DNA of 47,972 nt from a virus, in the IMG/VR virus record IMGVR_UViG_3300006917_000006, positions 1 to 47,972 of that record; one strand, written 5' to 3'. The translations under genes and the position numbers were made by a program. A model generated the notes under the pieces. It ran no database searches and was not told the origin of the DNA. It saw nothing but the letters and a program-made list of their open reading frames with translations. The stretch's first letter is position 1, and each line of letters starts with the position of its first letter. This document shows, one piece after another, positions 6,453-47,972 of this stretch.

Positions 6453-9400
6453 ATGTTCGGTTTCCTCTCCCCAGAAGCAATTGCGGAGAAGGCGAAGACG
6501 GCTGGCCGAACCTTCTGGTCTACGTTCGAAGACGAGGTTCGGAACAACAAGGCGTTCTCGACCATCTCGAAGACCCTGGACTTTATGAACCAGGGTCATT
6601 CGCCTACGGTGGCGAAGACGCTCGGCATGGCTGCCTATATGGGCCCATCGGCGCTCATCGGAGCGACGGCGGAGAAGCTCGGAACGGAGATTTTCAAGGG
6701 GTTCACGCGGTCCGGTGCCTCACTGTGGACTCAGGGGTTCGGGATGGCACCGTGGAAGCCGGTTACGCCACTTGAGAAGAACTTCCTCGGCGACGAGGAG
6801 ATCAAGCCGTACGGAGAGAACGTCTCAGACGCCATCAAGTCCGGCTATAAGTTCGCCGACTGGTCCAACCTCAATGCGCCCGGCGACAAGAAGATCACGG
6901 GTCTCGGATTCGGTATCGGTTTCGCCGGTCTCTCTGCGCTCGACTTCACGCCGGCAGGAGAGGGCAAGCAGGCGATCAAGCTCGCTGGAAAGGCAAAGGG
7001 AGAGTTCGAGGCTGCGGTGAAGATCGCTGACGAGCTCCTCGATGCGCGGAAAGCCGCCAAGGCCGGAGCGGAAGTCCCGTTCAAGCAGCAGGCAGTCGAG
7101 TTCGGAAAGAAGGCGACCAACCAGATCGTCGACTTCAGCGCACAGCTGGCACGGGACGAGAAGGTGGTCGATAAGGCGTACCAGTCGAGGCAGGTGGTCA
7201 GCGCGGAAGACGTTGCGAACGAGCTTAAGTCACTGGGTACGGCGGGCGGGGCGAGTGACTTCCTCCTCGATCAGGTGCGTTCTGCCGGCTCGTATACGAA
7301 GAGCGAGGTCAATATCAAGGAGCTGCTCAAGCGTGACGGCGGTATCGCCGATTACATACGCAAGGGTGGTGAGCAGTTGCGCCGTTACAGCGGACCAGCC
7401 AACATGGACCGCCCGATCATCATCGGTCCAGATGGCGACGTTCTCGACGGGTTCAACAGGATCCATCGTGCATCGAAGGAGGGGATCGAGAAGCTACCGG
7501 CATACATAGCAGATTCTCAGGTAACGAAGCCGTCGGTAGGCACGATCGACGATCTCGTCGACTACTCGCTCGACTACGTGAAACAGGCGGGTCAGTTCAT
7601 GGACGACCAGGGCGTTACCGGAGCGATCCAGGACATGGTGCAGAAGGGCTATCGTCCCGACCACTTCGGCATGTACCTCATTGCCCAGCAGGCGGATGAC
7701 GTGGCGAAGGCAGGGTTCAAGACCGGCCTCAGCGACGCAGAGATCCAGGCGCTCAAGGGCCTCAGCCACGTGTACGAGCCGTATGCGCAGAAGATCTATT
7801 CGGCCAACAAGGCCATGCGCGACATGCTCGTCGAGAACGGCGTGTGGTCGCGCGAGTTCGCGGACAAGCTCGAGAAGCTCTACCCGAAGTGGGTTCCGCT
7901 CAAGCGCGTCATGGAGGTGTTCGGCGAGAGCTCGGGGTCGAGGGCCATCGGAGGACTGTCCGAGCAGACCATTGCCCGAAGGCTTGTCGGATCCGAGCGC
8001 GAGATCGAAGACCCGCTCGAGTCGCTGTTCGGTACCTACACGCAGGCGTTCCAGCAGGCGACGAAAAACAAGCTGGCGCAGACCTACGCTGATTTCTACA
8101 AGGCACCGGGAAACCCGCTCGGCATCAAGCCGATCAGGACCGTCGAGATGGTCAAGGAGCGGATCCGGCTCGCAGAGCAGTATACGAAGGCGAGCGACTC
8201 CTACCGGTCATTCGTCAAGGACGGAAAGGCGGTCAACAAGGACCTCAAGGCGCTGGCGAAGAAGTCCGCCAAGGTAGAGGAAGACTACAAGTCCATCATG
8301 GAAGAGGCGGCGGTACGCGCCGCGGAGTTCGACAGCGAATCGAAGCTCTGGGACCTGATCGAGAAGGCGGATACGCGTCTTCCTAAGATGGAGGAGCTGG
8401 CGAGAAAGACCAAGCTCGCCGAAGGAGACAAGCAGCTCTACGAGACGCTCGCGAACGAGCAGAAAGCGGCGATGGAAGAGATCCGCCAGGAGCTTATGCA
8501 GTACAAAGAGCCGGCCCGCGATCTCTCGCAGGGAACGCTGTCCCTCTACCGGGATGGCGTGAAGGAACTCTACGAGATCTCGCCGGAGGCGGCGACCGCG
8601 ATGAAGATGCTCGGCGTAGAGTCGATGAACCTCATCACGCGCGTGACCAGGCTGGCGGTTCGCACCCTCAAGTTCGGAACCTCGGGCGTGAGCGCACCGT
8701 TCGCCGTTGCTAACGCGTTCTTCCGCGATCTCCTTGGCGGACTGCTCAACACGCCGAACTCGCTTCGCGTGCTGAAGAACTATCCTAAGGCCCTGGGCGT
8801 AGCGGCGGCGCATGACTCGTGGTGGCTTCCGAAGAAGTATCGCGTCAACGCTGACAAGATCTACGACGAGCTCGTGCGCAACTCCGCTGGAGGAACGAGC
8901 TGGGACGTGGTGCGCGGCGAGGAGGCGAAGACCCTTCAGGACATCATCTCGCGGGCATCGCTGAGCAACCGGCTCGACTTCGCGACAGGCGTGCGCGAGG
9001 GAATCAAGGCGTACACGGAAGGAGGGATAAAGGCCGGTGCCAAGGCGGCGTTCGACAACGCGCACCCGCTCCAGTTCCTCGGCAGCGTGATACGCGACGT
9101 GGAGGACTTCTTCGGTCGCTCGGAGGAGATGGGTCGCCTCGCGCAGTACCTCGGCAACAAGGAGGCGTTCCTCAAGGCGGGGTACACGGAAGAGGAGGCG
9201 ACGCAGCAGGCCGCCCGCGTAGCACGTTGGGCGACGGCTAACTTCCGCCGCCACGGAGAATCGTCCCGTGCGCTCGATGCCCTGATCGCCTATTTCGGCG
9301 CTTCGATCCAGGGAAGCCGCGCGACGGTTCGTGCCGCAAAGGCTGATCCGAAGTGGTTCGCCACGAAGTTTATGACGATGGTGGGCGTTCCGACGGCAAT

Positions 9401-11898: not shown

Positions 11899-12771
11899 TT
11901 AGAACTCGATGCCTGATCCGCAGTCCACCACGTCCAGCCCGTGCTCGCGCCACATGCGGATGACGCTCGGACGGTCGTCGAAGACCTTGTGAATGTGCTT
12001 TCCGCCTCCAAGGTACTTGTTGAGGATGTCCTCCTTGACCTCGGTATCGGGGCGGCGGTCCCCCGATCTGCGCATGATGAGCGTCAGGTAGTCTATGTCG
12101 TCGAGCACGTGGTCGGTGAGCCACGCGGTCGTCTCATTCCTGTACGTGTCGGGTCGGGCGGATACGAATACGATATCGTACCCGGCGTCGTAGAGAGGCT
12201 TGAGCTGGTCGAGCACGTCGATCCGGAGCGTGTCGAGCGGGATTGCTTCGAAGAACCCCTTCCAGTCCTTCTTCTCGACTCCTTTGACAAGGTGCAGGCG
12301 ATGGCTGATGTCAGCGATGGTCCCGTCCAGGTCGCAGACCACGTATCCCTTCTCGGGAGGATCCATGTAGCCGTGCTGCATCGCCATCTGGACGATCATG
12401 TCCTGGCCGACGGTCTTCTCCCGGAACACGTCGCGTAGGACGCACTCCTTCCAGCCGGTCTTGATCCTGACATGCTGGAACTTCGCTCCGTAGAGATCTG
12501 CGATGTGCTGCCACATGTCCTTGTGGCCGGGAGAGAGGTTGGTGTCATCAACGATCACGTTGACACCATCGGCGAGGAACATCCCCGCAAGCTCTTTCTC
12601 TGCCTCGATGGTCTTCTTCTCGTTGAGCGGCGTCCACTTGCCGAAGTGGAGCATCTCGCGGAGAAGGTCGCGGTTCAGGCGTACGCCGTTGCCTGCCTTA
12701 GCGAGCATTTCCTGTGCCGTCGTGGTCTTCCCTGACGCGGGGAGGCCAGACAGCATGATGAGCTTCGACAA
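11899..12771 (-). CDS. pseT: Polynucleotide 5'-kinase / 3'-phosphatase (T4 Pnkp type)
   Basis: A 290-residue bifunctional end-healing enzyme. The N-terminal kinase has the P-loop GLPASGKTT (residues 9-17). Lys15, Asp35 and Arg38 fall at the same numbers as the catalytic residues of T4 Pnkp. The C-terminal HAD phosphatase has DLDGT at 147-151, SARPDTY at 204 and a late DDRPS motif. It transfers phosphate to 5'-OH ends and removes 3'-phosphate or cyclic phosphate, preparing broken RNA for ligation. The partner Rnl2-type ligase is encoded 2.8 kb upstream in the same direction, and tRNA genes are present, so repair of cleaved tRNA is the likely job. Confidence 0.92.
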   Translation of the reverse strand: MSKLIMLSGLPASGKTTTAQEMLAKAGNGVRLNRDLLREMLHFGKWTPLNEKKTIEAEKELAGMFLADGVNVIVDDTNLSPGHKDMWQHIADLYGAKFQHVRIKTGWKECVLRDVFREKTVGQDMIVQMAMQHGYMDPPEKGYVVCDLDGTIADISHRLHLVKGVEKKDWKGFFEAIPLDTLRIDVLDQLKPLYDAGYDIVFVSARPDTYRNETTAWLTDHVLDDIDYLTLIMRRSGDRRPDTEVKEDILNKYLGGGKHIHKVFDDRPSVIRMWREHGLDVVDCGSGIEF

Positions 12772-15299: not shown

Positions 15300-15606
15300 T
15301 GACGTTGATTGCTTTGTCGTCGAGATAGCAGTCCGCGGGGATCTTGATGTTCGAGAAGGCGTGGTAGCGGATGTTGTTCTGCCTCAGCCACTTGAGCGTG
15401 ACGGGGATGTTCTCGTCCCTTCGGGCCGTGTAGATGACGACGAACCCGTGGCGGAACGCTTCCTCGACCTTCTCCGCTATGCGGTGGTTGACCGTCGATA
15501 CCGCTATCTCTTCCGGGGTCCAGCACTGCTCGTTGCAGAGCGTGCCATCGAGGTCTACGGCGAAGATCTTACCCCTGAGATCCATCCGCGATGCTGATTG
15601 AGTCAT
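15289..15606 (-). CDS. HAD-family phosphohydrolase
   Basis: A 105-residue minimal HAD fold: FAVDLDGTLC (nucleophile Asp, residues 17-21), VIYTARRDE (motif II region) and CYLDDKAINV (motif IV). No cap domain. Small phage HADs of this sort act on nucleotides or polynucleotide 3' ends. It lies between the RNA ligase (overlap 38 bases) and GroES, so a part in RNA end healing with the ligase is plausible but unproven. Confidence 0.8.
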   Translation of the reverse strand: MTQSASRMDLRGKIFAVDLDGTLCNEQCWTPEEIAVSTVNHRIAEKVEEAFRHGFVVIYTARRDENIPVTLKWLRQNNIRYHAFSNIKIPADCYLDDKAINVNDI

Positions 15607-16471
15607 TGAGTATGTCGACGTAGACCTGCTTCGCCTTCCGCATGACGAGGCCCTTGAGTTTCTTGAAGTCGAGCTTCGGTACCTTCTGCACGATTTCCCA
15701 TGCCTCTTCGGTGATCAGGTCGTGGTACACGGAGTTGGTGATGCGCGGGATGTCCTGCATGTCGAGACGATGGTCGAGAAGCGGTTGCGTCTTCTCCATG
15801 ATCTTCTTCACCCTCGGGAGCGTCACGTACTTGTTTACGACGTACATCTCCCAGTAGGTGTCGGAGTGCTTGTTGTTTCCGCCGAAGGTGATCGCGTTGT
15901 CCTCCTTGAAGGACTGCGTGACGATCTTCGCGTAGCAGAAGTCTCCGAACTGGTTGACGAACTCCATGTTCTTGAGCACCACGCCCTCGCCACGGTCGCC
16001 GAACGAGGACTTGCCGACGAACTCGTTGATCTCGTCGAGCGCAGGGTTGTCGATAGTGCAGATGATCGGAACCGTCTCTATGCCGTACTTCTTGGCGAGA
16101 TAGTCCACGTCGTTCGGAGGGAGATACTCGTGTCCGGTGTGGATGTCGAACAGGTAGAACTTCCGGTAGGCTGTCTCGTTGTACTGGATCGTGTGCCGCA
16201 CGAGCCACTCGCCGTAGAGCCGGAGATCGGGCTGTTCGGTCAGAAGCCGTACGATTCCCGGATGCGACTGCACGTACTCGACGAGCCCGTTGAATCCCTT
16301 CTCGGTGACATCCTGGTTGCGCGAACCGCAACGGATCACTCCGTCCTCGATCCAGACAGAAGCGTTAGCTCCGTCTACCTTCTCCTGGACCGTGACGGTT
16401 CCGTTCAGGATGCCATCAGTCTCTTCCTTGCCGAGCCGGTGGATCTTCTCGTACTTCCTGAAGTTGCTCAT
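15569..16471 (-). CDS. RNA ligase, Rnl2 type
   Basis: A 300-residue ligase. The nucleotidyl-transferase motif I EKVDGANAS puts the AMP-accepting lysine at Lys31. Motif III is LYGEW (85-89), motif IV is GEGVVLKN, and motif V follows as AKIVTQSFK. The length and order match the T4 Rnl2/RnlB family (PF09414), with a C-terminal helical domain. It seals 3'-OH/5'-phosphate nicks or breaks in RNA. With the Pnkp at 11899 it makes a complete heal-and-seal pair. I start at MSNFRKYEK because an upstream in-frame extension overlaps the exonuclease gene; the chosen ATG overlaps that gene's stop and follows ACCACTATCAA. Confidence 0.9.
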   Translation of the reverse strand: MSNFRKYEKIHRLGKEETDGILNGTVTVQEKVDGANASVWIEDGVIRCGSRNQDVTEKGFNGLVEYVQSHPGIVRLLTEQPDLRLYGEWLVRHTIQYNETAYRKFYLFDIHTGHEYLPPNDVDYLAKKYGIETVPIICTIDNPALDEINEFVGKSSFGDRGEGVVLKNMEFVNQFGDFCYAKIVTQSFKEDNAITFGGNNKHSDTYWEMYVVNKYVTLPRVKKIMEKTQPLLDHRLDMQDIPRITNSVYHDLITEEAWEIVQKVPKLDFKKLKGLVMRKAKQVYVDILNDSISIADGSQG

Positions 16472-17247
16472 TTGATAGTGGTAATGCGTTCTGATTGCAC
16501 ACTGTGCGACCAGCTTCCGCAAGCCTGACACTGGTACCGTTGCTGGCGGCCCGTGGAAGTGGACTGGAACCCGCGACGCTGAAGCTTTTCTCCGAGGCAC
16601 GCAGGGCACACGTTGACCTGTCCCGCGATGACGCCGAGGTTCGGGTGATTCTTTATCCACGGACGGACATAGAGATAGAGTTCTCGGAGCAGCGCTACGT
16701 CCTGTACGTTATAGGTGCGCATCTGCTTCCAGTACCTCTTGTTCCCGGCGATACAACCGAGCCACATCTCGAATCCTTCGTGTCTGACCTTCTCGCCGAG
16801 CCCGAGGAACTTGGACGCGTCCTGGAGCTTGTTGCTGTTGAGCTTGAAGTACTTCTTGAGAACCTTCTTCGTGTCGATCGACTTGAAGGGGCTGTAGGGC
16901 GGGAGTCCCCATTGCAGGAAGCGTGCATTGAGCTTCTTGATGTCGAACTCGTCCCCGTTGTGGGCGATGACGATATCTGCCTCGTCGAACAGCTCGTAAG
17001 CTTTGTTCACGAGGAACGCGTCATCAAGCTGGTACGGCGTATAGTTCGGATCGTCGCACAGCATGAGGCTATGGATCTTCCGATCGCCGTTCCAGCAATA
17101 TGCGAATCCGAGAAGCGTAGTCTCGCGTTCGAACTCGATGACGTTCTGCTCGTACTTTCCCCAGGTATATCCCAGGTTCGGAGCGGTCTCGATGTCGATG
17201 TAGAGTATCCTAGGCTCTCGGGACTCGACGACGTTGGCTTTTGCCAT
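16468..17247 (-). CDS. DnaQ-like 3'-5' exonuclease with C-terminal zinc ribbon
   Basis: A 259-residue protein. The RNase H-like exonuclease core has LYIDIET (Asp18, Glu20), IAHNGDEFDIKKLNARF (Asp102) and YNVQDV (Tyr179, Asp183), the DEDDy pattern. Residues 214-243 hold a zinc ribbon of two CxxC pairs (CPAC, CQAC), an unusual addition. It may process DNA or RNA ends; no polymerase is encoded with it. It leads the segment with RNA ligase, HAD and GroES, with an ATGA overlap downstream and a TACCACTAAACTAACAC leader. Confidence 0.85.
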   Translation of the reverse strand: MAKANVVESREPRILYIDIETAPNLGYTWGKYEQNVIEFERETTLLGFAYCWNGDRKIHSLMLCDDPNYTPYQLDDAFLVNKAYELFDEADIVIAHNGDEFDIKKLNARFLQWGLPPYSPFKSIDTKKVLKKYFKLNSNKLQDASKFLGLGEKVRHEGFEMWLGCIAGNKRYWKQMRTYNVQDVALLRELYLYVRPWIKNHPNLGVIAGQVNVCPACLGEKLQRRGFQSTSTGRQQRYQCQACGSWSHSVQSERITTIK

Positions 17248-18956: not shown

Positions 18957-20561
18957 TTAGTCTTTCTTTTCATCCTCGATGAGAACGAGGTAGTCGCCCG
19001 ACAGGAGGGCCTGTGCGACGCTGATTGAGTTCTGCACGGAGTTCCTGAGCACGACGACGGGCTCGATGATCCCCGCCTCGCTCAGATCCTCGTATTGTCC
19101 GGTGTTCGCGTTGTAGCCGATCTTGTCGGTGACGTTCGCGAGCATGGTCTTGAAGTGCTCGTTGCAGTTCAGCGCGATCTGCTTGAGCGAAGACTGGCAG
19201 TAGACTTCCACAAGTCCGCGAATGTCCGTGTGGAGCTTCTTGAACTTCGTCTTCGAAAGCTTCTGGTAGATGTCCCAGAGCGTGATCCCTCCTCCGAGGA
19301 CGTAGCCCTCCTGAAGTGCGGAGCGCGTAGCGTTGATGGCGTCCTCGTAACGATGTAGCTTCTCGGTCACTTCGGGGAGCGTCGCTCCTCCGACGCGCAC
19401 GGTGGTGATGCCGTTGGTCAGGCAGGCGATGCGGCGCTTGAGGGTCTTGCCCTCTACGGAATCAGGGTCAACCTTGTCGAGCTGCTTGCGCAGGGCGTCG
19501 ATACGGAGATCGAGTCCTACGTTCCTGCCCTCTCCTGCGAGGAGCATGGTGCGGCGGTTGTCGGCAAGGGCCTTAGTGGCGTGGGTGAAGAACTCGGAGA
19601 GCTTCTTCCCGTCGCCCGACTCTCGTGCGGCCATGAGGCGGTCGGCGATCGACCCGTTCTTGTCGAGCACGACATTCCCCCTGAGATAGATCGCAAGGTC
19701 ATCGAGCGCGTCAGGATCGGACTCCTTGATGAGAAGGATCTCCATGTTCACCTTCTGGTCGAGGTGGTTCGTGATGAAGATGCCGGGTGCCTGCCCGATG
19801 AAGTCGGACGCGACCACGACGAGACGGTTCTCGCCGAGGGCTGCGGCAGCCTGCATGATCTCCATGACCTCCTCCTCGTAGTAGAGGCGCTTATCCGTGA
19901 TGAACACGAGCGGGTTCTCGTGAACAGCAGCCATGCCGCCGGGACGGTTGGCGAGATGCTGGCTGAAGAGTCCGCGCTCGATCACGAACCCGTTCTCCTC
20001 GATGATCTCGACGCCGAGCTTGCTATGCGCCTCGAGGAAGATGAGTCCATCGAGTCCCGCACGCTTCACCGCCTTCGCGACGTTCTTCGCGATGTCGGTA
20101 TCGTTGCTGGCAGAAACGGACGCTACGTACTCGAGCTGCTTGTCATCGTCTACTTTCCGTGCCCGTGAGTTGATCTCATCTACTAGGCACGATGCGACGT
20201 AATCGAGTTCCCGCGTAAGGTCGGCGTTGTTCCATCCTCGGTCGAGCAGGGCGAAGCCTGCGCGGATCAGAGTGTCAGAAAAGAGGATGGTGGTCGTCGT
20301 TCCGTCGCCCGCTACCGCATTGGTGCGGAACGAGGAGTTCTTGACGAACTCGACGATGGCGTTCTCTACGGGATCCTTGAGCTGGATATGGCGGGCGATC
20401 GTGAACCCGTCCTTGGTGATGAGGAAGTTGCCGTTCTGGTCCTCATAGACGACGTTCTTGCCCTTGGGCGTCAGGGTTCCCACTACGGGTCCTACGAGCT
20501 TGGCGAGTCCGGAGAACATGCGCTCCCGTACTGCGCTGTACTGGTAAGGTTCTGTATTCAT
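18957..20561 (-). CDS. groEL: Chaperonin GroEL
   Basis: A 534-residue group I chaperonin of full architecture. ATPase residues are intact: TKDGFTIARH with Asp51, AGDGTTTTIL (residues 84-93), and the distal EDAINATRSALQEG with Asp407 followed by GYVLGGGITL. Equatorial, intermediate and apical regions are all present (YVASVSASND, IEENGFVIERGLFSQHLA, ASDFIGQAPGIFI). It ends LIEDEKKD without the Gly-Gly-Met tail. Start chosen at 20561 because the promoter is at 20592-20620 and the longer frame would begin upstream of transcription. It forms the folding chamber with the phage GroES at 14997. Likely clients are the capsid or the large virion proteins. Confidence 0.95.
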   Translation of the reverse strand: MNTEPYQYSAVRERMFSGLAKLVGPVVGTLTPKGKNVVYEDQNGNFLITKDGFTIARHIQLKDPVENAIVEFVKNSSFRTNAVAGDGTTTTILFSDTLIRAGFALLDRGWNNADLTRELDYVASCLVDEINSRARKVDDDKQLEYVASVSASNDTDIAKNVAKAVKRAGLDGLIFLEAHSKLGVEIIEENGFVIERGLFSQHLANRPGGMAAVHENPLVFITDKRLYYEEEVMEIMQAAAALGENRLVVVASDFIGQAPGIFITNHLDQKVNMEILLIKESDPDALDDLAIYLRGNVVLDKNGSIADRLMAARESGDGKKLSEFFTHATKALADNRRTMLLAGEGRNVGLDLRIDALRKQLDKVDPDSVEGKTLKRRIACLTNGITTVRVGGATLPEVTEKLHRYEDAINATRSALQEGYVLGGGITLWDIYQKLSKTKFKKLHTDIRGLVEVYCQSSLKQIALNCNEHFKTMLANVTDKIGYNANTGQYEDLSEAGIIEPVVVLRNSVQNSISVAQALLSGDYLVLIEDEKKD

Positions 20562-20591
20562 AAGTTGTAAATCCCTTTGCAGGGCACATAC

Positions 20592-20620
20592 ATTATAGCA
20601 GACTTTGACGGAAAAGTCAA
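20592..20620 (-). promoter_or_regulatory. groEL promoter
   Basis: Minus strand: TTGACT at 20615-20620 and TATAAT at 20592-20597, spacer 17 bp. Leader of about 24 nt with a weak AAAGGG 11 bases before the ATG. Confidence 0.9.
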
Positions 20621-20627
20621 ATGAAAC

Positions 20628-20636
20628 TGTGGATAA
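20628..20636 (-). promoter_or_regulatory. DnaA box TTATCCACA upstream of groEL promoter
   Basis: Perfect consensus DnaA box, 7 bp upstream of the -35. The same placement occurs at 27454 and 33549. Confidence 0.7.
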
Positions 20637-20639
20637 CGC

Positions 20640-20660
20640 AAAGCCCCCGGTGTCGGGGGC
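20640..20660 (-). terminator. Terminator of the tRNA/RNA operon
   Basis: Perfect hairpin GCCCCCG/CGGGGGC with a 4-base loop, then TTT on the minus strand. It separates the tRNA cluster from groEL. Confidence 0.75.
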
Positions 20661-20946
20661 CATGCGCATGATTTCTTACTGGATCGGCCGGCAGATTCGA
20701 AAGGCACACTGCCTGGGCGATCGTTCGGATGACTCCTGTTCGAAGTCCGTTCGCTGCGTCCGTGTGAGCACCCTCTGTAGGGGGCACCGACACACTGAGC
20801 GAACAATTACAGTATCCACTAACTGCTTCTTGATCAGGGACCAATGCAAATCCCTGGAAGCATATATGTGACGGGCGCGAGAGATGGCGCTTACGCACCA
20901 CCTTCGCCTAGGGAAACTAGACTACCCCTGTGGATAAGTCAAGCTG
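20661..20946 (-). other. Non-coding region between tRNA-Trp and terminator
   Basis: No convincing gene on either strand. It would be transcribed as the 3' end of the tRNA operon. Inverted repeats are visible (GTGTG...CACAC around a CCC/GGG pair at about 20760-20795), so a folded 3' segment is possible. A DnaA box (TTATCCACA, 20929-20937) overlaps a TTGACT on the minus strand but has no matching -10. Confidence 0.5.
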
Positions 20947-21019
20947 CGGGCGGCCAGGGAATCGAACCCTGCCAGCAGGATTTGGAGTCCCGCTCGCCAG
21001 CCTTGGAACATGGTCGCCC
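20947..21019 (-). tRNA. tRNA-Trp (CCA)
   Basis: Acceptor stem GGGCGAC/GCCGCCC with one A-C mismatch, anticodon loop CTCCAAA (CCA), T-arm CAGGG-TTCGATT-CCCTG, discriminator G. The D-arm is weak. CCA is not encoded. Confidence 0.85.
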
Positions 21020-21125
21020 TACAATCGATTCTAAGGCGCGTTATGTCAGAAGACGTAGCTGGGGTCATCTTTTGACAAAACGTCGCTCTCGTGGTCTTGT
21101 GGTGCAAATGCGAGCGTCCTGGCGG

Positions 21126-21197
21126 AGCGTCGTACGGGGCTCGAACCCGTTCCTTCTGATTGGAAGTCAGATGTGCTACCGGTAACACCTACAACGC
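21126..21197 (-). tRNA. tRNA-Gly (TCC)
   Basis: Seven-base acceptor stem GCGTTGT/ACGACGC, anticodon loop CTTCCAA in a TCTGA/TCAGA stem, T-arm ACGGG-TTCGAGC-CCCGT. Confidence 0.92.
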
Positions 21198-21199
21198 GG

Positions 21200-21271
21200 A
21201 GCCTCATAACGGATTCGAACCGATCTCTCCAATTTACAAGATTGGGGCTTTTCCTACTAAGCGAATGAGGC
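21200..21271 (-). tRNA. tRNA-Thr (TGT)
   Basis: Acceptor GCCTCAT/ATGAGGC, anticodon loop CTTGTAA in a CCAAT/ATTGG stem, canonical T-loop TTCGAAT. Two bases separate it from tRNA-Gly. Confidence 0.92.
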
Positions 21272-21312
21272 GCTATTATCATTATACCTATATCTTCATG
21301 TTTTGTCAAGTG

Positions 21313-21384
21313 CTCCCCAGGCAGGACTCGAACCTGCAACCTTCTCGTTAACAGCGAGCTGCTCTACCATTGAGCTACCAGGGA
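21313..21384 (-). tRNA. tRNA-Asn (GTT)
   Basis: Anticodon loop CTGTTAA, D-arm AGCTC...GAGC, T-arm GCAGG-TTCGAGT-CCTGC, acceptor TCCCTGG/CTGGGGA with wobble pairs. It lies directly downstream of the structured RNA. Confidence 0.92.
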
Positions 21385-21395
21385 ATATTCAGCAA

Positions 21396-21796
21396 GCCAA
21401 GGAGCGAGAGTCGTCGGGGGATTAATTCAGGAGGCCCGAAGGCCGTCCTGTCTGCCTTATTTATTCGGCAGCACCTTTCCACTCCCGCTCGCTGGCCTCC
21501 TGTTTTCTGACGGTGCGCTGGTGGAGGGGGCTAACGAAGTTACAACCTATTTCTCCTATCGGGAGCAACCCCGAAGGCGACTTGTTTCTCCTGGCGTGTG
21601 AGTGGCTGTCTCAGATACCTTTTGGGAGCGACCCCATATTCTCTCTGAGCCCTTAAACCTAGTTCCAGGAAGGCCGTCTAACCCCCACCATCAACGCGCC
21701 GCCCTTTGTTCGGACAGCCTGGTGCGCTGGGAGAGGGGCACTGCTAATTATTCACAGTCTAGCCGCGCGGCTTCGCCCCTCTCCAAACGCGCCAGG
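21396..21796 (-). ncRNA. Large structured RNA candidate inside the tRNA array
   Basis: About 400 nt with no plausible gene, between tRNA-Pro and tRNA-Asn. Three long-range stems partition it: 21396-21411 with 21481-21496, 21512-21530 with 21682-21700 (19 positions), and 21718-21738 with 21776-21796 (21 positions, 17 Watson-Crick). Inside lie smaller hairpins, e.g. 21428-21450. On the minus strand two hairpins close with the stable cUUCGg tetraloop, and G-U pairs favour that strand, the same as the tRNAs. The second and third stems share GGTGCGCTG/AACGCGCC halves, as if duplicated. Large ornate RNAs (GOLLD, ROOL) are known beside phage tRNA genes; I cannot assign this to either. Confidence 0.75.
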
Positions 21797-21809
21797 TTGT
21801 AAGGAACTG

Positions 21810-21880
21810 TCAGACTACGAGGGCTCGAACCCCGGCCAGATGGTCCCAAACCACCCGTGCTACCGCTACACCATAGTCTG
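21810..21880 (-). tRNA. tRNA-Pro (TGG)
   Basis: Acceptor CAGACTA/TAGTCTG, anticodon loop TTTGGGA in a GGTGG/CCATC stem, T-loop TTCGAGC, discriminator A. Immediately upstream of the structured RNA. Confidence 0.92.
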
Positions 21881-21885
21881 ATCTG

Positions 21886-21958
21886 TGGGCCATGAGGGAT
21901 TCGAACCCCCGACCACCTCCGTGTAAAAGAGTTGCTCTACCAGCTGAGCTAACGGCCC
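21886..21958 (-). tRNA. tRNA-Val (TAC)
   Basis: Acceptor GGGCCGT/ATGGCCC, D-arm AGCTC...GAGC, anticodon TAC in loop TTTACAC, T-loop TTCGAAT, discriminator A. The anticodon stem has a terminal A-G mismatch. Confidence 0.9.
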
Positions 21959-21961
21959 TGG

Positions 21962-22032
21962 GGTGGCTAATGGGACTTGCACCCATGTCGCCAGGTCCAC
22001 AACCTGGAGTTCTACTGCTGAACTATAGCCAC
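21962..22032 (-). tRNA. tRNA-His (GTG)
   Basis: Acceptor GTGGCTA/TAGCCAC, anticodon loop TTGTGGA in CCAGG/CCTGG, discriminator C as expected for His. The T-loop reads TGCAAGT rather than TTCRANY, and the base before position 1 is A, so G-1 would have to be added after transcription. Confidence 0.88.
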
Positions 22033-22079
22033 TATAAGGCCCCTACCGTTGTATGTCGTCCCTACAACGTCGGCTGATC

Positions 22080-22556
22080 CTAAAGAACGGGCGGTAGCTC
22101 GCGCATCCTGACGGACACGGTGTAGCTCCAATGCTTCCAGTTCGAGTACTTCGTGAGAATCATGTTACGCGCAACGGCTCTCTGTAGGTCGCAGTCGTAG
22201 ATATTCTCCTCAGTCGCGCCGAATGACTTCCCGTAGGAGAGCCATGTGCCCATCTGGAACTGGAGACAGCCGTAGCTGTACTTTCCATTCACGTCGAGAA
22301 CCTTAGCGTTAGGATTGTTTTCACTCTCGTACTTTCCAAGCCTAGTAAGCCAGGTGTCGAGAGAGTCTTCCGAGACGCGCGGTTTCTCGCGAGGAACAGC
22401 GTATGTGGTCGTAGCGGTTGTTGGGGTCGTCGAACCCGTGGTGATCATCTCCGTTACCGGAGCGGATGCTTGCGCGGGCAGTGCCGTAAACAGAGAAATC
22501 GGCACCATGAGACTTACTGCCAGACTCGCTACGAGCCTTGTCTTGTAGTTATTCAT
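22080..22556 (-). CDS. Secreted transglycosylase/lysozyme-like protein
   Basis: A 158-residue protein with a signal peptide (residues 1-30, ending ALPAQA), a Thr-rich linker (residues 36-55) and a small SLT-type catalytic domain: LGKYESENNPNA with the candidate catalytic Glu77, then YSYGCLQFQMGTW (residues 93-105). It would cleave peptidoglycan glycan strands, acting as endolysin or at cell entry. The short SLT core with Ser-Tyr-Gly-xx-Gln-Phe after a Thr linker is a style common in Patescibacteria. Hairpins end six bases before its ATG, so translation may be controlled. No Shine-Dalgarno. Confidence 0.8.
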   Translation of the reverse strand: MNNYKTRLVASLAVSLMVPISLFTALPAQASAPVTEMITTGSTTPTTATTTYAVPREKPRVSEDSLDTWLTRLGKYESENNPNAKVLDVNGKYSYGCLQFQMGTWLSYGKSFGATEENIYDCDLQRAVARNMILTKYSNWKHWSYTVSVRMRELPPVL

Positions 22557-41993: not shown

Positions 41994-42239
41994 AGGCAGG
42001 GTTAGAGTGTCCGAATTGGTGGGTGAATAGAATAGCTTTCGAGTTATTCGCCCCTACCGTTCACCCACCGCTTCGGGCCCTTTAATCCCCCGAGGGTGAT
42101 GATCATCCGAGATCGTTATCCTGAGAGCTTGTATTTGTGCGCGGACTCAACCGCCGATGGACTCAACCATCGTTAAAAAAGGGAAGTGCTTTTTTGCATA
42201 AGACAAGGGTAACAAAACACAGCAATCAAATTCGAGTAC
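41994..42239 (+). ncRNA. Structured leader of the scaffold-capsid operon
   Basis: No gene fits. A perfect 10-bp stem (42018-42027 with 42060-42069) encloses an AATA/TTATT arm. Further on, two hairpins in tandem carry the same six-base loop ACTCAA: GCGG/CCGC (42141-42154) and CGATGG/CCATCG (42155-42172). An A6G/CT6 stem (42175-42195) follows, which resembles a weak terminator. The array suggests a protein-binding leader or an attenuator that sets capsid expression. Confidence 0.65.
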
Positions 42240-46906: not shown

Positions 46907-47972
46907 ATGGGATTTCGAGAACCACAAACACCGGGAATCGGCCTTTCTGGATCTGGCCAGCTTACCCCATCCGAGGTACTGACCGTCCAGAACATCTCCG
47001 CGCTCGGAGATCCGGGTGCTGACCGCATCCTGTTCTGGGACGCATCTGCCGGATCGTTCCAGTATCTTGAGGTGGGGGCGAATCTTACGATCACGGGAAC
47101 GACTCTTGATGCTTCGGGAGGAGGTGGAGGAAGCCCAGGAGGCTCAGACACGCAGCTCCAGTACAACAATTCGTCCGCGTTCGGCGGAATTTCTGGGGCG
47201 ACTTCGGACGGGACAAACCTGACCGTACTCGATGCGAACTTCATAATCGCCGACGATGGTGATGCAACCAAGAAGCTCAAGTTCCAGGTATCGGGTATCA
47301 CCACCGGGACAACACGAACCGTAACGCTTCCTGACGCGTCTGGAACGATGACGCTGCTGGGCAACTCTTCTACCGGCTCCGGGTCGGTAGTGCTTGCCAC
47401 ATCGCCAGTTCTGGTGACGCCGAATCTCGGCACGCCTTCGGCAGTAACACTGACCAATGCTACGGGCCTTCCGGTTTCTACGGGTATCTCTGGTCTTGGA
47501 ACGGGCGTCGCCACGGCCCTTGCCGTCAACGTCGGCTCGGCAGGAGCCTTCGTTACATTCAATGGTGCGCTCGGTACGCCGAGTTCCGCAACGCTCACGA
47601 ACGCAACCGGCCTCCCTATCAGTACGGGTGTTTCAGGCCTGGGAACAGGAGTCGCGACATTCCTCGCCACGCCGTCCTCCGCGAACCTCGCCTCTGCGAT
47701 CACGGACGAGACCGGTTCTGGCGCTCTCGTTTTCGGTACCTCGCCGACGTTCACGACGAGCATCATCACGCCGAAGATCGTTGGTGGTTCGGCGACCACG
47801 GGTACGCTTCTCACCATCCAGACGACATCTGGTAATGGAACGACCGACCAGATTGTATTCGCAGGAGGAAATAACGGCGCGACTACCTTCGCCACCCTCA
47901 AGGCGAACTCGCTCGACCTCGGCACCTCGGCCGTCCTCGGCACGGGGACCATCGAGCTCGGCGCAGCCTCCG
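46907..47972 (+). CDS. Tail fiber-like virion protein, N-terminal part (continues at base 3)
   Basis: The 5' part of the split gene: 355 complete codons to the contig end, of which the last 123 bases repeat the start of the window. The N-terminus is GFREPQTPGIGLSGSGQLTP. A Gly-rich hinge follows, then two related repeats with the core LGTPSxxTLTNATGLPxSTG and GxxGLGTGVAT, then ITDETGSGALVFGTSPTFTT. This repeat wording is frequent in fiber-like proteins of environmental phages. Together with 3-863 it gives about 601 residues. It likely forms a trimeric fiber or baseplate spike for host contact. Confidence 0.85.
   Translation, partial: MGFREPQTPGIGLSGSGQLTPSEVLTVQNISALGDPGADRILFWDASAGSFQYLEVGANLTITGTTLDASGGGGGSPGGSDTQLQYNNSSAFGGISGATSDGTNLTVLDANFIIADDGDATKKLKFQVSGITTGTTRTVTLPDASGTMTLLGNSSTGSGSVVLATSPVLVTPNLGTPSAVTLTNATGLPVSTGISGLGTGVATALAVNVGSAGAFVTFNGALGTPSSATLTNATGLPISTGVSGLGTGVATFLATPSSANLASAITDETGSGALVFGTSPTFTTSIITPKIVGGSATTGTLLTIQTTSGNGTTDQIVFAGGNNGATTFATLKANSLDLGTSAVLGTGTIELGAAS
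47850..47972. repeat. Terminal direct repeat, right copy
   Basis: Identical to bases 1-123. Marks the circular join. Confidence 0.95.

Follow-up and report, generated by a model that had tools for sequence, protein, structure and literature searches.

A candidate three-domain structured RNA between the tRNA genes of a phage that probably infects Patescibacteria

Does a long spacer inside a phage tRNA array specify an RNA of its own and, if so, of what kind? The question is raised by the virus contig IMGVR_UViG_3300006917_000006 (47,972 b, the whole of which is called the window here), in which 424 nt separate tRNA-Pro from tRNA-Asn. Large RNAs occur in such places in other phages. GOLLD, a structured RNA often longer than 800 nt, is found beside or within tRNA arrays, and ROOL, which is elaborately folded, is found close to tRNA islands; the function of both is unknown (PMC12286853).

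Position within the tRNA array and the genome

The tRNA genes lie on the minus strand in the order His-Val-Pro-[424 nt]-Asn-Thr-Gly-Trp (Table 1). The candidate RNA unit, 21385-21808 on the same strand, fits exactly between tRNA-Pro and tRNA-Asn and occupies their entire spacer. The preliminary description had placed these two tRNAs at about 12 bases from the candidate, and both are confirmed on the minus strand. The predicted structure begins 1 nt past tRNA-Pro and ends 5 nt short of tRNA-Asn, so 21385-21808 is taken as the true unit. A perfect sigma-70 promoter sequence sits between tRNA-Asn and tRNA-Thr. The Thr, Gly and Trp genes are therefore probably transcribed from a promoter of their own, and the 424-nt RNA would be part of the upstream transcription unit His-Val-Pro-RNA-Asn.

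The unit is non-coding. Its longest ORF is 66 aa and stops occur in six of six frames, which excludes a protein-coding gene and agrees with the earlier remark that no plausible gene is present. No cloverleaf or tmRNA model matches, so a missed or degenerate tRNA or a tmRNA was also rejected. A check of both strands found no terminator-like site inside 21385-21808, and intrinsic terminators were discarded as a reading.

A near-identical 25-kb contig (G001) links window position 47972 to position 1 (protein matches 98-100%), and the genome is accordingly near complete and either circular or circularly permuted. The encoded proteins include TerL, a DnaB-like helicase, GroEL, an RNA ligase and a polynucleotide kinase-phosphatase, and the last two are likely a tRNA-repair pair. 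The peptidoglycan-binding domain of the endolysin shows 72% identity to Ca. Paceibacterota and has 72 genome matches, mostly in Patescibacteria. These matches suggest that the host is probably a member of the Patescibacteria. A search with TerL in GTDB genomes gave no match.

Table 1. Features of the tRNA array, the 424-nt unit and selected genes, in window coordinates
Feature	Position	Strand	Remarks
tRNA-Val + tRNA-His	21885-22032	-	first tRNAs of the array
tRNA-Pro(tgg)	21809-21880	-	upstream neighbour of the 424-nt unit, same direction
Domain I	21708-21807	-	long stem with single mismatches (5 / C.A / GCGUU:AGCGC / 10 bp); head of two small hairpins; z -6.1 alone
Domain II	21509-21703	-	long stem with C.A + GCGUU:AGCGC element as in domain I; large branched head; z -3.6 alone
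Domain III	21390-21502	-	long stem (3/7/10 bp, 1x1 mismatches between); head of two hairpins, one with cUUCGg tetraloop; z -5.2 alone
5' arm motif GGCGCGUU, stem I copy	21786-21793	-	
5' arm motif GGCGCGUU, stem II copy	21693-21700	-	
3' arm CCCCUCUCCCAGCGCACC, stem I	21721-21738	-	
3' arm CCCCUCCACCAGCGCACC, stem II	21512-21529	-	
Purine-rich repeat AGGAGAAAYARGU	21545-21592	-	two copies 35 nt apart; domain II head
tRNA-Asn(gtt)	21312-21384	-	downstream neighbour of the 424-nt unit
Sigma-70 consensus TTGACA-17-TATAAT	21281-21309	-	12/12 positions; downstream of tRNA-Asn
Small secreted-protein gene	22080-22556		upstream of the array
GroEL-like gene	18957-20669		downstream of the array
RNA ligase	15569-16660	-	
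Polynucleotide kinase-phosphatase	11899-12771	-	

Predicted fold and repeated stem element

The predicted fold of the unit is exceptional. Its minimum free energy on the minus strand is -197 kcal/mol, compared with -152.9 +/- 5.9 for shuffles (z -7.45), and the plus strand folds less strongly (z -5.42). No equal-length window of the genome folds better: none of 450 windows of 424 nt, scored against a regression on shuffles, falls below the unit. Predicted stability of a single GC-rich sequence nevertheless does not prove that an RNA is functional.

The three long stems of the preliminary description are all found on the minus strand. Each closes a self-contained domain, and pairing between domains amounts to about 0-1 expected pairs. 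Folded singly, every domain is lower in energy than all 100 of its shuffles. Pair probabilities in the main helices are 0.9-1.0, with less certainty for the inner head of domain II. Co-folding with the adjoining tRNAs leaves the structure unchanged. Domains I and III follow a common plan of mismatch-separated short helices, a 10-bp helix and a two-hairpin head. Both of the cUUCGg strings reported earlier exist in the sequence. The predicted fold uses just one of them, that of domain III, as a hairpin loop; the hairpin favoured in domain II is UCGGGG-UUGC-UCCCGA.

Stems I and II share both of their arms, as had been claimed. The 3' arm GGTGCGCTGG(T/G)(G/A)GAGGGG occurs at 21512 and 21721 with 16 of 18 positions identical, and the 5' arm AACGCGCC occurs at 21693 and 21786. 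Of 200 shuffled versions of the region, 4 contained a direct repeat that equalled the shared 18-mer in quality. The element common to the two stems consists of a C.A mismatch and GCGUU:AGCGC. Five pairs lie outside it, and three of these differ on both sides between stems I and II with pairing retained, as read off the predicted helices.

Comparison with known RNAs and with related phages

The covariance search suggested in the preliminary description matched no Rfam family beyond chance. This search (cmscan, all Rfam 15 families, 20800-22100, both strands, E<=10, run without a positive control) returned the tRNAs and chance matches only, and nothing for the 424-nt unit reached an Rfam gathering cut-off. 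Membership in GOLLD is not supported, because no covariance model matched at E<=10 and because 424 nt between intact tRNAs is compared with a length often >800 nt. Nor is ROOL membership supported, for lack of an RF03087 match at E<=10; when the genome was searched for ROOL specifically nothing was found, and the 14 control genomes gave no match either. Class A RNase P RNA was rejected, since RF00010 has no match in the window whereas it matches the related phage G012 and five Paceibacteria genomes. The proposed GOLLD/ROOL kinship thus survives as to setting, with a large non-coding segment that folds strongly amid phage tRNA genes, but not as to membership, given the size and the Rfam result.

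The setting of the candidate RNA is comparable to that of GOLLD and ROOL. Like GOLLD, the 424-nt RNA is encoded by a phage with tailed-phage genes and has tRNA-Pro and tRNA-Asn on either side, but it is about half as long and the universally conserved 3' half of GOLLD is not seen in it. GOLLD assembles into a 14-mer cage. ROOL shares with the candidate RNA a phage setting close to tRNAs and an elaborate fold, but its model has 574 positions and multiple pseudoknots, whereas three separate hairpin domains are predicted here.

Homologs were sought in several collections. Blastn against INPHARED and PLSDB gave no significant match, and the best match among about 90 related phage records, gathered through GroEL, helicase, TerL and MCP, had E 0.05, which is chance. 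Two IMG/VR motif scans on the internal repeats of the RNA returned 47 and 80 loci among the matches listed, without a blastn match beyond chance. Those examined were rejected as coding sequence, mostly collagen-like Gly-rich repeats besides a gene of 628 aa, or as repeats of no relation to the RNA (L180). Covariance models, each built on the one available sequence of domain I, II or III, found only the window itself in 1.3 Mb of related phage DNA. Neither blastn nor the domain II model found a match in 384 Paceibacteria-class genomes. Neither the window nor the collections examined yielded a second copy of the element. The closest relative that spans the array, G005 (TerL 66%, GroEL 45%), has 25 tRNAs and lacks the RNA. 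The 424-nt RNA is a strong candidate for an orphan non-coding RNA, modelled from a single sequence.

Other structured RNAs are present in or next to the tRNA arrays of related phages. In G437, where tRNA-tRNA spacers were folded, two paralogous 131-nt hairpins lie between tRNAs on the minus strand (L439, 6047-6178; L440, 6612-6742). Their z values are about -6 each, against a background of 3 in 400 random windows there with z<=-5; their outer stem is identical and their heads differ. A further long-stem hairpin in G437 (8136-8293) directly follows a promoter and precedes tRNA-Asn. G005 has two long hairpins adjoining tRNA-Trp (z -5.8). The long hairpins of these relatives have no Rfam match beyond chance and no match to the 424-nt RNA. 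They share with it a long stem, a branched head, a position close against tRNAs and a strong folding signal, but their sequence similarity to it is not beyond chance. Strongly folded non-coding inserts thus recur in the tRNA arrays of the clade, and their sequence is not shared.

G012 carries an RNase P RNA inside its tRNA array, between tRNA-Phe and tRNA-Leu (contig IMGVR_UViG_3300024518_005648, L117:1840-2111, plus strand). It matches the full-length RF00010 model with 76 bits, below the Rfam cut-off of 100, and E 1e-23, and it retains the conserved GAGGAA.GUC, GGUAACGC and AACAGAA. A literature search for RNase P RNA in phages found no report. This class A RNA resembles the 424-nt RNA in being structured, in its comparable size and in lying inside a tRNA array, and the two phages belong to one clade. 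The ends of the 424-nt RNA, in contrast, are not paired together, and it lacks the conserved ACAGAA segment.

Proposed role, alternatives and further elements

That the 424-nt stretch is a real structured RNA seems likely to us. We give about even weight to the fuller reading, in which this non-coding RNA is transcribed together with the tRNAs, is excised by their maturation and folds so as to present repeated binding sites. It would be carried as a stand-alone RNA of about 424 nt in the transcript His-Val-Pro-RNA-Asn. Its 5' end would arise from 3' processing of tRNA-Pro, and its 3' end from an RNase P cut at tRNA-Asn. The released RNA would act in its folded form, with three long stems and single mismatches at regular spacing. 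A protein, the ribosome or a further molecule of the RNA may bind repeatedly to these stems, two of which have the C.A-mismatch element, and the folded RNA would probably be protein-binding. Transcription, excision, binding and function are what we infer for it. Counting against this explanation are the lack of the RNA in G005, the lack of shared sequence among the structured elements of relatives and the lack of homologs.

It is somewhat unlikely that the hairpins instead serve to process or space the tRNA transcript, as RNase III-cut stems like those around rRNAs that separate or protect the tRNAs and have no later role. Long-stem hairpins are indeed found repeatedly in the tRNA transcripts of this clade, as in the paralogous pair and the promoter-proximal hairpin of G437 and the long leader-trailer stem around a tRNA-Met-like sequence in G441. 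However, most neighbouring tRNAs of the array are 0-40 nt apart without such a stem, three domains with elaborate heads over 424 nt far exceed the needs of a cleavage site, and mismatches interrupt the stems. The likeness of stems I and II, which resemble diverged copies of a single hairpin, raises the further idea of a palindromic and perhaps mobile element, or of a tandem-duplicated hairpin, inserted in the array without an RNA function. The element is missing in relatives, and these genomes have long inverted repeats elsewhere too. We nevertheless consider an insertion quite improbable: no second copy or target-site duplication was seen, both tRNAs are intact at the exact borders, and the tRNA strand folds more strongly than its complement.

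The polynucleotide kinase-phosphatase and RNA ligase genes bear on another alternative, an anti-defence or decoy RNA whose long stems would sequester a host nuclease or sensor. Such a role is consistent with phage tRNA repair, and proteins that bind double-stranded RNA would naturally be drawn to long stems. The support is purely contextual, and this alternative appears very improbable.

If the preferred reading, a folded RNA excised from the tRNA transcript, is true, a smaller three-domain RNA that matches neither GOLLD nor ROOL would extend the habit of carrying big RNAs in tRNA arrays beyond these families, and the repeated stem element would be a concrete candidate binding site. To our knowledge, GOLLD and ROOL, as large phage RNAs beside tRNA genes, have no settled function. 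That the tRNA arrays of these phages may carry working RNA machines is suggested by the RNase P RNA of G012. A broader and speculative view, which we rate as unlikely, is that tRNA arrays of Patescibacteria phages are carriers of changing large RNAs. One lineage would have a second RNase P RNA, and the phage described here a new three-domain class whose docking site is the repeated C.A-mismatch stem element. Freed during tRNA maturation, such RNAs would act in the processing of tRNAs, in translation or in defence.

Further elements were noted in these genomes. Non-coding elements of about 210-230 nt occur in G431 (L433, 15402-15614, minus), G438 (about 7290-7520, minus) and G461 (L436, 30044-30262, plus). 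All three have the segment GGUGACUAYUACGAG in common, and the long closing stem differs in sequence each time; those of G431 and G438 additionally share (U/G)CAAAUCCUUGC. They may make up a separate family of non-coding RNAs whose closing stem covaries. A long leader-trailer helix, UAGUACACAGA/UCUUUGUGUACUA, encloses a tRNA-Met-like sequence in G441 (L442, 30025-30116, plus). G438 has a tRNA-like sequence (7271-7700, minus) with acceptor, D and T arms, seemingly without an anticodon arm. The relative G020 has 33 tRNA genes over 7 kb with long spacers (L111, 10783-17923). In the window itself, the structural operon has a 90-nt hairpin (41999-42088, plus) with 28 of 30 positions paired, which follows the portal gene downstream and is the strongest 200-nt folding signal of the genome (z -6.4).
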